DNA of 64,000 nucleotides from positions 186,001 to 250,000 of the forward strand of contig NZ_JACJOF010000038.1 in the NCBI RefSeq assembly GCF_014695395.1, given 5' to 3'. Shown in pieces: positions 46,449 through 54,517 of the stretch (position 1 is its first letter; the number at the start of each line of letters is the position of its first letter). Below the pieces are notes generated by a model. The model did no database searches. It saw only the letters and a program-made list of their open reading frames with translations, and was not told the DNA's origin. A program made the position numbers and the translations under genes. This DNA is from Nodosilinea sp. FACHB-131. GTDB lineage: Bacteria > Cyanobacteriota > Cyanobacteriia > Phormidesmidales > Phormidesmidaceae.

Positions 46449-46958
46449 TTAGGGTTTAACTAATTCAAATTCAGTGAGTAGCCAATCCCTTAAAACTTGA
46501 GTCTCAGGAACCTTCCCATCAATATCCTGAGGACGCACAGTGGGGATTCCCAGAATACCCGCAAAATCACTTGGATTTAGCGTCAAGATCTGGCTAATAT
46601 CCGCAACTGCCATCACAGCTGCAAGGCGAGCATCGTGAGTTCGTTTACCCTTAATTTCATTCTCGGTTACAAGAGTAAGCCAAGTCCATAGAATTTGCGG
46701 CCCTTCTTCTACCAGGGGAAATCGAACAGTCAGTTGATCAATCACTTGGCGCGTTTGCTCGATTGACCAACCCAAGCCATTTACCTCAGTAGGACGAGTG
46801 GCAACAACCCAAAGCTCAATCAGAACTTGTGCCGTTAAACAACACTCATACCCCTGCATAAGCAAGGTGGCGACGGCCTCTGTCACTAGCCCATGTTGTT
46901 CGTCAGACGGGTTTCTGAACCGTAGAACAATGTTGGTGTCTAGCAGATATTTGACCAT
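46449..46958 (-). CDS. PIN-domain ribonuclease toxin (VapC-like)
   Basis: A 169-residue PIN-domain protein. The acidic metal site can be followed: D7 (LLDTNIV), E48 in AQVLIELWVVATRP, and later acidic residues in KGKRTHDARLAAVM (D about 107) and LTLNPSDF. PIN toxins are magnesium-dependent RNases that cut tRNA or rRNA. The start ATG overlaps the upstream small gene's TGA (TGATG), the usual coupling in vapBC operons. Confidence 0.88.
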   Translation of the reverse strand: MVKYLLDTNIVLRFRNPSDEQHGLVTEAVATLLMQGYECCLTAQVLIELWVVATRPTEVNGLGWSIEQTRQVIDQLTVRFPLVEEGPQILWTWLTLVTENEIKGKRTHDARLAAVMAVADISQILTLNPSDFAGILGIPTVRPQDIDGKVPETQVLRDWLLTEFELVKP

Positions 46959-47200
46959 CAGTCGTAAATGGTGCTGCGGTCAAACGCTTCATCTGAAAGA
47001 CTCGGGCCTGTTTGAGGTAGCTGCGAGACCCAGGTACGAAAGTTCTGAGCACGCTCCAAAGCAGTCGCATGCTGCCAGAACAGATTGTCCTGAGATGGCG
47101 GTTCAGTTTGAGACTTGAACGAGTTGACAAGCTCAGCAATTTTCTTCAGTTGACTTTCGCTGAGTTTATCAATCTCTTGTTTGAGAGTTTCACGCAGCAT
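46958..47200 (-). CDS. Antitoxin partner of the PIN-domain toxin
   Basis: An 80-residue protein directly upstream of, and overlapping by one base, the PIN toxin. Residues 1-35 are helical (LKQEIDKLSESQLKKIAELVNS). The middle and C-terminal part (SLSDEAFDRSTIYD) resembles antitoxin tails that occlude PIN active sites. It does not look like the classical AbrB- or RHH-type VapB; similar short proteins are paired with PIN genes in cyanobacteria. Position is the main argument. Confidence 0.72.
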   Translation of the reverse strand: MLRETLKQEIDKLSESQLKKIAELVNSFKSQTEPPSQDNLFWQHATALERAQNFRTWVSQLPQTGPSLSDEAFDRSTIYD

Positions 47201-51011: not shown

Positions 51012-51779
51012 CTAAAAATTCTGCACTAAGGCTTCTACGAGTTCTAAAAACCCGGCCACTTCGGTGGCTTGGGTGACGTAGGTGGGGTGATAAGTAAGCC
51101 GAGGCCAGTAGTCGACCACATTGGCCACCCCCACCGACTGGGGAAACAGGGCTGGGTTAAACATGCTCTCGTCGTTGGGACTGTCGCCCACGGTCAAGAC
51201 CTCAGCGGCGGCGATCGGTGCAAAGTAGCGCTCAAGCACCCGCTGCAAGCCCGCCGCCTTAGACTGGCCCAGCGTAAATAGGTGGCACTGCACGGTGCTG
51301 TAGGTAAACCCCCAGGCCAGCGATTGGCACAGTTGCGCCATCTCATCTAGATCGGCCTGGGTCAGGCCCTCAATGTCAAACGTCCAGTCGGTGAGGCGAA
51401 AGCGATTGTCGTCTGACTCGCGCAGCTTGGGCCACCGCCATTGCAGTTGGGCAAAGGCCTGTTGCAGCAGCTGGCGGTGGGCGACCAGGTTGGGAATGTC
51501 AACCAGTGGCTCTGGCGGACCGTTTTGGGGAAAGTAGATGCCACCGTTTTCGGCCATGGCCCCCACTACGGGCAGATAGTGGGCTAGGCCATTCACCCAT
51601 CCCGCCGATCGCCCGGTGACAATCATCACCGGCAGGCCCAACCCCTGGAGCTGCTCCAGCCCTTGCAGCAGGGCAGGGGTAAATTTGCCCTGGCGGGTGA
51701 GGGTGCCATCCATGTCGGTGGCTAGGAGCTGGGGCCGGGGTGAAAACCCGTGGCTGGGTAATGGTTGAACTTCGCCCAT
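51012..51779 (-). CDS. HAD-family phosphatase (Cof/sucrose-phosphatase-like)
   Basis: A 255-residue HAD phosphatase with the C2B cap. Motif I is D22 and D24 in ATDMDGTLT, motif II VTGRS, motif III lysine near QSKAAGL, and motif IV GDSPNDESMF. The C2B cap spans about residues 85-190 (WRWPKLRESDDNRFRLTDW). Relatives hydrolyse sugar phosphates such as sucrose-6-phosphate or mannosyl-3-phosphoglycerate; the substrate here is not clear. It is divergent from the M15A-type gene with 45 bases between starts. Confidence 0.88.
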   Translation of the reverse strand: MGEVQPLPSHGFSPRPQLLATDMDGTLTRQGKFTPALLQGLEQLQGLGLPVMIVTGRSAGWVNGLAHYLPVVGAMAENGGIYFPQNGPPEPLVDIPNLVAHRQLLQQAFAQLQWRWPKLRESDDNRFRLTDWTFDIEGLTQADLDEMAQLCQSLAWGFTYSTVQCHLFTLGQSKAAGLQRVLERYFAPIAAAEVLTVGDSPNDESMFNPALFPQSVGVANVVDYWPRLTYHPTYVTQATEVAGFLELVEALVQNF

Positions 51780-51824: not shown

Positions 51825-53495
51825 ATGCACGCTATGAGCACGTTAGCACCCGATCAACGCAACTATTACTATCTACTGGAAGGGGGGCGCGCGGGGGTGC
51901 ACAAGCCTATTTTGGCGGCCCTCTATGCCGTGCATAATCAGCCCCAGCTCACCGACGGCGAAACGGGCCTGGGCATTGCCCCGGTAAACCAGGTGGATAT
52001 GGGCGAGGTCGACACCTTTGCGGCCCAGGTGCAGTATGCGGCTAACACCCTGCGCAGCCTCACCAATGGTCTTGTTGAGCAGGGCTGGAGCGGGGCCGAC
52101 ATTTGGGATGCCAGCGTGGGGCGCTACAGCGATCGCTTTCTGCAGGCGGTAGCCAATGGCTTTACACCGACGGAGGGCGATCGCGATGCCGCCCAGCTCG
52201 AACCCAGTGATGCCGCCGCCCTGCTTCAGGCTTACCTCGACGACATTGGCACCGACTACAGCGGGGCGCAGCTGCCCCAGAATGTGAGCCAGCTCGACCC
52301 GGCCCTGCTGGCCTTTGCCGAGCGGGTGCCGCCCAACTATGGCCGGCTCGACTTTCAGCGTCAGGCCATGGTCGAGGCGGTGCGGCTGTGGCGACAGCTC
52401 AACACGGCGGCAGCGGTGTATGAGGTTTTGAGCGTCCCAGTGGTTGACCAGGTGCCTGACGAAGCGGCTTTGGACAATGCGCTGGTGGCCTTTATGCAGT
52501 CGGTGGCTCGCTACTACGCGGGCTACCCCAACCAGCGTGAGGCGCTGATTCGCCTGGTGCAGCTGTGGCGGGCGATGGATGGGCGGGAAGAGGCGATCGC
52601 CTGGCTGCTCACCAACGACCCCTTTGCCCATGAAACAAACCTGGAAACCCTTGACTCGGCGCTGCTCGCCTTTGTGCAAAAAATACCCAATCTCTACCAC
52701 GGTCAGGGCGACCTGCGCTTTGCGCTAACCGAGGGCTACCGCCGCTGGTTTGGCCTCGACTCGCGCACCACCGCCATTCAGCATCTGGGGGTCAACCCCG
52801 ACGACCTGGCGCAAAACACCGACAACCCAGCGGCCCTAGTCATAACCGCCCGCACCCTCGATCGCGCCCTGCTCGACTTTGCAGCCAATATTCCCACTAC
52901 CTATACCCCCACCGAAGACCAGCGGGAGGCGTTGATTCGCCTGGTGCAGCTGTGGCGGCGGCTGGAGGGGCGCATCCCCGCAATTCAGTCGCTATTTGAA
53001 GATCTGCGTCGATTGGAGCGCGCGGCCCCTTCGTCACCCGAGGCCATGCCCGCGCCGGTGCCTGCACCCCTGCCGCCGCGCCCCGCTCAGTGGACCCCCA
53101 ACAATATTCAGCTGGACGCTAGCATTGTGCCCAACGGCAACTTTACCTGGGCAGAAGCTACCCGTGGCGGTGCCCGCATGCCTCCTAATCAGGCCACGGT
53201 GGATGCCATTGTGCGCATTGCCGCCTTGGCCCAGCATGCCCGCGATCGCGTCGGTCGGCCCTTCCTAATTACTAGCTGGTACCGCCCCCCTGAGCTCGAC
53301 AGTCGGCTAGGCGGGGCCTCTGAGAGTCGCCACGTGGTGGGCGATGCTATCGACTTTTACTGCATGGGGCTCACGGGCAATCAGGTTTACTGGGCGCTGG
53401 ATCCCTGGTGGCCGGGTGGACTGGGCCGCTACAGTCGGTTCCCGGCGCTGGTGCATTTAGATGCGCGCGGGTCTAAGGCGCGGTGGACGCGTTAG
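51825..53495 (+). CDS. M15A peptidase-like protein with four internal repeats
   Basis: A 556-residue protein (a second ATG at 51834 is also possible). Residues 1-115 form an unassigned N-terminal domain (YYYLLEGGRAGVHKPILAAL, then VDMGEVDTFAAQVQYAANTL). Residues 158-390 hold four related units of about 45 residues, at 158-202, 217-262, 277-322 and 346-390, sharing aLLaFa..iP..Y....dQReAlirlvqLWR.l..r..Ai..L. After a proline-rich linker (400-420), residues 427-553 form a peptidase M15A/YcbK-like domain with zinc-ligand candidates H503 and D510 (SRHVVGDAIDF) and H544 (LVHLD). Such domains trim peptidoglycan peptides. No signal peptide is visible, so its location is unclear. Confidence 0.85.
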   Translation: MHAMSTLAPDQRNYYYLLEGGRAGVHKPILAALYAVHNQPQLTDGETGLGIAPVNQVDMGEVDTFAAQVQYAANTLRSLTNGLVEQGWSGADIWDASVGRYSDRFLQAVANGFTPTEGDRDAAQLEPSDAAALLQAYLDDIGTDYSGAQLPQNVSQLDPALLAFAERVPPNYGRLDFQRQAMVEAVRLWRQLNTAAAVYEVLSVPVVDQVPDEAALDNALVAFMQSVARYYAGYPNQREALIRLVQLWRAMDGREEAIAWLLTNDPFAHETNLETLDSALLAFVQKIPNLYHGQGDLRFALTEGYRRWFGLDSRTTAIQHLGVNPDDLAQNTDNPAALVITARTLDRALLDFAANIPTTYTPTEDQREALIRLVQLWRRLEGRIPAIQSLFEDLRRLERAAPSSPEAMPAPVPAPLPPRPAQWTPNNIQLDASIVPNGNFTWAEATRGGARMPPNQATVDAIVRIAALAQHARDRVGRPFLITSWYRPPELDSRLGGASESRHVVGDAIDFYCMGLTGNQVYWALDPWWPGGLGRYSRFPALVHLDARGSKARWTR

Positions 53496-53599
53496 GGGAG
53501 TGGGGGAGTGATGGGTGAGGGGGTGGGCGAGTAGGAGAGTGAGTGAGGGCCAGCAGTCTGTCGCTGCCTTTGACACATTATTTGAGATCCACCAAGTCA

Positions 53600-54517
53600 A
53601 TGGCAGAAAGTGATTCTATTTCAGGGGCGGAGCTGTGGGCTTGGCGCGAAAAGGCGTTAGCAGATGTTCAGGCAGCGGGAGTTGACGCCGACGAAGTCGA
53701 TTGGTTGCTGATGGCGGTGGCGGAGGTAGATCGGCTGTCGCTAAGGCTGGGTACGGTGCAGCAGCGAGGGACAATTCCCCTTTGCTGTTCTCTGGCCGAG
53801 TTGGAGTGTCGCTGGCAGCAGCGGCTCACCGATCGCACTCCTGTGCAATACCTGGTGGGCGAAACTCCCTGGCGCGATCTGATGCTGACCGTGTCTCCGG
53901 CGGTGCTGATTCCCCGTCCTGAGACCGAGCTGATTATCGATCTGGCTGAGGCGGCGATCGCCCGCAGCCCGATCGGAGATCAGCTGTCTCAGGGCATTTG
54001 GGTCGATATGGGCACCGGCAGTGGCGCGATCGCCCTGGGTCTTGCCCAAGCCTTTCCGTCGGCTCAGATTTTGGCGGTGGATTTTAGCGGTGAAGCGCTG
54101 GCGATCGCTCAGGAGAATGCGGCTAGGGCGGGGTTGAGCCACCGCATCACCTTCTACCAAGGCTCCTGGTTTGAACCGCTGGATACCTACCGTGAGCAGC
54201 TCAGCGCTGTGGTGTCGAACCCGCCCTACATTCCCTCGGCACTGCTGCCGACGCTGCAACCCGAGGTGATCAACCACGAACCCGCTAGTGCCTTGGATGG
54301 CGGCGACGATGGTCTGGACGATCTCCGCCTGCTCGCTGCCCAGGCTTCTAAATTCCTCGTGCCGGGCGGGCTCTGGCTAGTGGAAATGATGGCGGGCCAG
54401 GGAGATGCAGTCCGAGAACTGCTGGAAGCGCAGGGATGCTATTGCGATATTCAAACTTGTTTAGATTTGGCGGGGCGCGATCGCTTTGTGCAGGCGATCT
54501 ACGCTCCCGAACTCTAG
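53600..54517 (+). CDS. prmC: Release factor glutamine methyltransferase
   Basis: A 305-residue SAM-dependent enzyme that methylates the GGQ glutamine of peptide release factors RF1 and RF2, speeding up termination. The N-terminal helical domain (about 8-90) leads to the methyltransferase domain with IPRPETELIIDL, VDMGTGSGAIALGLA (SAM site) and the catalytic VSNPPYIPSA. The ATG at 53600 gives the normal length; an ATG-like earlier start at 53543 reads through non-conserved sequence. It overlaps the convergent exported hypothetical gene by four bases. Confidence 0.95.
   Translation: MAESDSISGAELWAWREKALADVQAAGVDADEVDWLLMAVAEVDRLSLRLGTVQQRGTIPLCCSLAELECRWQQRLTDRTPVQYLVGETPWRDLMLTVSPAVLIPRPETELIIDLAEAAIARSPIGDQLSQGIWVDMGTGSGAIALGLAQAFPSAQILAVDFSGEALAIAQENAARAGLSHRITFYQGSWFEPLDTYREQLSAVVSNPPYIPSALLPTLQPEVINHEPASALDGGDDGLDDLRLLAAQASKFLVPGGLWLVEMMAGQGDAVRELLEAQGCYCDIQTCLDLAGRDRFVQAIYAPEL

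Follow-up and report, generated by a model that had tools for sequence, protein, structure and literature searches.

A leaderless cyanobacterial protein family combining an M15 peptidase domain with four helical repeats

Gene, domains and repeats

Here, we describe a gene of Nodosilinea sp. FACHB-131, located in a window of 64,000 nucleotides (the whole stretch of DNA analysed, contig NZ_JACJOF010000038.1, positions 186,001 to 250,000), whose 556-aa product joins an N-terminal domain, four repeats and a C-terminal M15 zinc-peptidase domain. The M15 domain belongs to an already known kind of enzyme and the protein is not a new kind of system; what is new is the architecture, unusual in that a family-restricted N-terminal domain is joined to a helical repeat that always occurs four times, without an export signal, and in that the catalytic site has been lost repeatedly while selection continued. 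In the literature library searched, no paper describes this protein family. Positions below are those of the window:

51012..51779, minus strand: HAD-family phosphatase gene (F1), divergent, its start 45 bp from the family gene; a conserved neighbour
51825..53495, plus strand: whole gene, 556 aa; full-length relatives in GTDB contigs
51834..52274, plus strand: N-terminal domain, residues 4-150, acidic (pI 4.1), of no known family
52290..52433, plus strand: repeat 1, residues 156-203
52467..52610, plus strand: repeat 2, residues 215-262
52647..52790, plus strand: repeat 3, residues 275-322
52854..52997, plus strand: repeat 4, residues 344-391
53019..53096, plus strand: proline-rich linker, residues 399-424
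53097..53492, plus strand: M15 zinc-peptidase domain, residues 425-556, basic (pI 9.9)
53331..53333, plus strand: codon of His503, first zinc ligand
53352..53354, plus strand: codon of Asp510, second zinc ligand
53454..53456, plus strand: codon of His544, presumed third zinc ligand
53543..54517, plus strand: downstream methyltransferase gene, a position it has only in the closest relatives

Conservation of the start among relatives suggests that M4 (51834) rather than M1 is the true start; the closest named loci, in Leptolyngbya sp. FACHB-60 and Nodosilinea sp. WJT8-NPBG4, are 94% identical. A preliminary description of this DNA, made from the letters alone, had reported no export signal, and the protein indeed has none: its most hydrophobic 19-residue stretch has a Kyte-Doolittle mean of 1.06, and a stop codon 6 codons before M1 excludes a signal sequence from another start. 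No membrane-like segment is present in 27 family members (no 19-residue mean above 1.51), compared with 2.18 for a real membrane helix of a neighbouring gene family. By the same measure, the three other M15_3 proteins of the genome (L002, L003 and L004, on contigs 15, 20 and 23) are also without a signal-like segment, so the export question is wider than one protein. Their M15 domains are 40-49% identical to the one described here, but other repeats precede them, SH3-like by eye and with no Pfam match. Three proteins of family f9 (L019, L020 and L021) carry the N-terminal domain and the four helical repeats and also, ahead of the M15 domain, about three repeats of the SH3-like kind; they are a fusion of both architectures.

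The four repeats and the M15A-type domain first read from the sequence are borne out by shuffling, by a repeat profile and by Pfam. The repeats are units of about 48 residues, in register and with the spacing of 59, 60 and 69 residues originally given, and any two share 33-50% identity (16-24 of 48 positions; z 11.9 to 21.7 against 1000 shuffles each). A profile of 48 positions, built from 12 family members, finds exactly four places in the genome, all in this gene (E 1e-22 to 6e-20), with no further match below E 0.09. Across cyanobacteria it yields 48 matches in 12 genomes, always four per protein and in family proteins only, the lone exception outside the family being a marginal match full of stops. 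Profile searches with the repeat, proposed as a check, did not link it reliably to any known domain of Pfam, PHROGs or the PDB sequences, and the repeat region of this protein has no Pfam match above cut-off. Pfam TPR_TmcB scores 14.2 bits here against a cut-off of 27; it matches 17 of 18 family members at E<=1 (best 3.9e-6), and unrelated helical families too. Scores with TPR-type and other helical Pfam models are consistent with a helical repeat and settle no membership.

Structure prediction, the other computational check proposed, was run in AlphaFold2 on repeats 3-4, with repeats 1-2 added to the alignment, and gave an all-helical pair (pLDDT 89, pTM 0.82), with confidence in just two of the five models; no fold matched it clearly. 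Foldseek found no match for this model at E <= 0.001 among PDB and viral models (best in PDB, E 2.4), and a VIA structural comparison gave a best Z of 6.6, to mycothiol S-transferase, in the usual range for unrelated helical models. The repeat is thus predicted to be helical with no assigned relative, a claim that covers the repeat and not novelty of fold. Since the modelled pair is all-helical, the repeats could equally be a scaffold rather than wall-binding modules, one of the comparisons drawn in the preliminary description. A full-length AlphaFold2 model, from an alignment of 15 close relatives, has a pLDDT of 34.

The N-terminal domain, originally listed as unassigned, likewise has no reliable match in Pfam, PHROGs or PDB sequences, and its profile matches only proteins of the four-repeat M15 family in the sampled cyanobacteria. 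That it is a fifth repeat was rejected (probability 1%), and its likeness by eye to a degenerate lysozyme-like (SLT) fold finds no support in hhalign (probability below 1% against 16 cyanobacterial SLT domains). Negative results for the N-terminal domain and repeats hold for the collections searched, with other phyla covered by libraries only.

The M15 domain and repeated loss of its zinc site

Residues 455-546 match Pfam Peptidase_M15_3 (PF08291; E 5e-11) with 43.1 bits against a curated cut-off of 23.2, in line with the M15A-type assignment made at the outset; the score with MepK (NF053624), 21.8 bits, is below its equivalog cut-off of 185. The zinc triad, H-x6-D ... H, is intact as H503, D510 and H544, the last of which we take to be the third ligand from family knowledge and conservation. 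The nearest solved structure is PDB 1lbu (profile match E 8e-6), the zinc D-Ala-D-Ala carboxypeptidase of Streptomyces albus G, which has a like C-terminal domain and shares the triad; here, by contrast, the N-terminal part is a different domain followed by four helical repeats, there is no signal peptide, and some relatives are without the triad.

The M15 domain also matches the phage endolysin family phrog_894 (E 8e-16), and 208 phage records contain relatives of it. Phage M15 endolysins (phrog_894, phrog_28234) share this domain and need no signal peptide, but are without the N-terminal domain and helical repeats. Phage endolysins act only once the membrane is open. These matches would suit a domesticated or resident phage lysis gene; yet only the M15 part matches, residues 1-398 having no counterpart in phage or plasmid collections or in IMG/VR scans, and the gene recurs at the same chromosomal site, exists as one copy and, within the order, tracks the relationships of the species, leaving such an origin very improbable. 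A phage or mobile origin of the N-terminal part itself was rejected on the same searches.

The full zinc triad is kept in 55 of 63 collected sequences, and three others are cut short. The remainder belong to four genomes where two of the ligands, or all of them, have been lost: G215 (Q,L,Q) and G444 (H,V,Q), which share a genus, together with G396 (H,T,Y) and G011 (H,L,Y); the triad is intact in G395, of the same genus as G396. A quick tree of residues 4-398, from which the M15 domain was left out (SH-aLRT support only; G011 a long branch), needs three separate losses, all forced by well-supported branches. In at least three separate events the triad disappeared from proteins that are otherwise full length. 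Two loci, L112 and L113 (in G395 and G432), keep the triad and lack the GGAS motif just before it, and are possible intermediates toward zinc-less forms.

In the zinc-less pair G215/G444, the M15 domain and the repeats both have a dN/dS of 0.12 and the N-terminal domain has one of 0.09, ratios that are rough because synonymous differences (0.65-0.70) are near saturation. Zinc-intact pairs are under purifying selection, with the triad and its surroundings strongly constrained. Because the dead domain is still constrained, the ratios point to a role beyond catalysis in the zinc-less lineages, and, because relatives have repeatedly lost the zinc site, peptidase activity as the whole point of the protein is weakened.

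An intracellular binding role is therefore a serious reading and the main rival to that of a wall peptidase. The protein would never be exported but would act as a binding or scaffold protein, its M15 fold serving as a pocket in which a muropeptide, a D-amino-acid peptide or the tail of a protein is bound, with catalysis secondary. Such a role agrees with the lack of an export signal in any member, with the independent triad losses (at least three) and a dead-domain dN/dS as low as that of the rest of the protein, and with the fixed, invariant block of four helical repeats, which resembles protein-binding scaffolds. It is rendered rather unlikely by the strong constraint on the full triad and its surroundings in most members; moreover, M15 domains otherwise act on peptidoglycan, and no intracellular ligand is indicated. 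A fuller version, which we also consider unlikely, would make the protein an intracellular binder or sensor, for example of wall peptides, in which a peptidase fold was placed on a new four-repeat scaffold and a new N-terminal domain and an ancestral or secondary catalysis was discarded at least three times.

Distribution and genomic setting

The full protein is present in 52 of 63 genomes of the order that includes Nodosilinea sp. FACHB-131. Its gene is single-copy there, save where fragmented contigs or a frame break have split it, and the match between its relationships and those of the species indicates that it is kept vertically. Phylum-wide, residues 1-398 were found in 17 of 386 sampled genomes, from a dozen families, and in no genome of the heavily sampled family f7.

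The HAD-family phosphatase gene F1 lies divergent from the family gene in 15 of 23 family loci examined, and a conserved membrane-anchored protein, F2, is encoded after it in 9 of the 23. Where the family gene sits between them (G008, G027, G062 and G170), F1 and F2 are 1.8-2.0 kb apart; in 17 genomes without the family gene, they are directly back to back, separated by 144-264 bp. Since the two stand together where the M15 gene is absent, they are not its dedicated partners, and a functional partnership with either is weakened. That the gene occupies, or has vacated, one defined place favours either ancient vertical inheritance followed by clean losses or a single early insertion. In Nodosilinea sp. 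FACHB-131 F2 is elsewhere, and the family gene is followed instead by the methyltransferase gene, which we take to be PrmC-like.

F2 itself (L038-L050; for example, a 266-aa protein in L040) is a membrane-anchored cyanobacterial protein without a Pfam match, present in 49 of 194 sampled genomes and often encoded back to back with the HAD phosphatase gene. Elsewhere in the window, at 46449-47200 (minus strand), a gene for a PIN-domain protein (46449-46958; Pfam PIN E 4e-7) directly follows an 80-aa ORF (46958-47200); the two lie between genes that neighbour each other directly in the close relatives L022, L023, L024 and L030, and look like a recently gained toxin-antitoxin pair.

Genomes carrying the family have sheath genes of contractile injection systems somewhat more often (7 of 17, against 65 of 369 others; Fisher P 0.02, uncorrected for relatedness), and the family-restricted N-terminal domain begins directly at the first residue, as might a part that targets a wall enzyme to a dedicated non-Sec export machine of this kind. 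Ten of the 17 carriers, though, have no detectable sheath gene, which makes the protein an unlikely cargo of a contractile injection system, and no injection-system gene stands next to the family gene in the window or belongs to the gene families that are conserved near its relatives. A paper on Anabaena names two DUF4157 putative effectors and mentions no peptidases (PMC8894136). We accordingly consider dedicated non-Sec export improbable.

A putative leaderless wall peptidase

Tentatively, and at somewhat less than even confidence, we read the protein as a leaderless cyanobacterial wall peptidase that stays in the cytoplasm until the wall becomes accessible. It would be a soluble cytoplasmic protein of about 61 kDa. 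In most lineages the C-terminal M15 domain would bind and cut, and in the others bind, a stem peptide or cross-link of peptidoglycan at His503/Asp510/His544. The acidic N-terminal domain and the four helical repeats may act as a scaffold, either to hold a ligand or partner or to cover the basic catalytic domain; with the repeat block at pI 5.0, the opposite charges of the two halves would fit an N-terminal half covering the catalytic half inside the cell. The wall would be reached only when the inner membrane is breached, by lysis, sacrificial cell death or phage burst, or by a non-Sec route.

We favour this wall-peptidase reading because the M15_3 match is above its cut-off and the triad is intact in most of the collected sequences, because the nearest structure is 1lbu and the nearest phage families are endolysins, because no member compared has a signal or membrane segment while active pairs are under purifying selection, and because, besides the basic M15 domain and acidic N-terminal half, there is a precedent in the pneumococcal autolysin LytA (PMC12029793). 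LytA, a wall hydrolase with a repeat block and no signal peptide, is located in the cytoplasm or attached to the membrane while cells grow, and attaches to neighbouring cells when lysis takes place (PMC12029793). The likeness is in logic only, hydrolysis here being putative: LytA is an amidase, not an M15 enzyme, its choline-binding repeats are beta-hairpins and lie at the other end, and the protein described here has no Pfam match to choline-binding repeats or to an amidase domain. Lysis-linked removal of the wall does exist in cyanobacteria, since stressed Anabaena cells become ghosts without peptidoglycan, in a paper that is not about the four-repeat M15 family (PMC8894136).

Against the same reading stand the losses of the zinc site, at least three, in lineages that retain the protein and selection on the dead domain. 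An enzyme used only at lysis would also be hard to keep as a single-copy gene across almost all genomes of an order if lysis did not belong to the normal course of life, and no holin or lysis partner is among the conserved neighbours of the family gene.

The family adds a domain and a repeat, both without a known family and both strictly tied to one protein, to the little-studied set of cyanobacterial wall-remodelling proteins. It poses the question of why a whole order keeps a leaderless wall peptidase, and why the zinc site is dispensable while the rest is selected; the naturally zinc-less members offer controls, already at hand, with which binding can be told apart from cutting.
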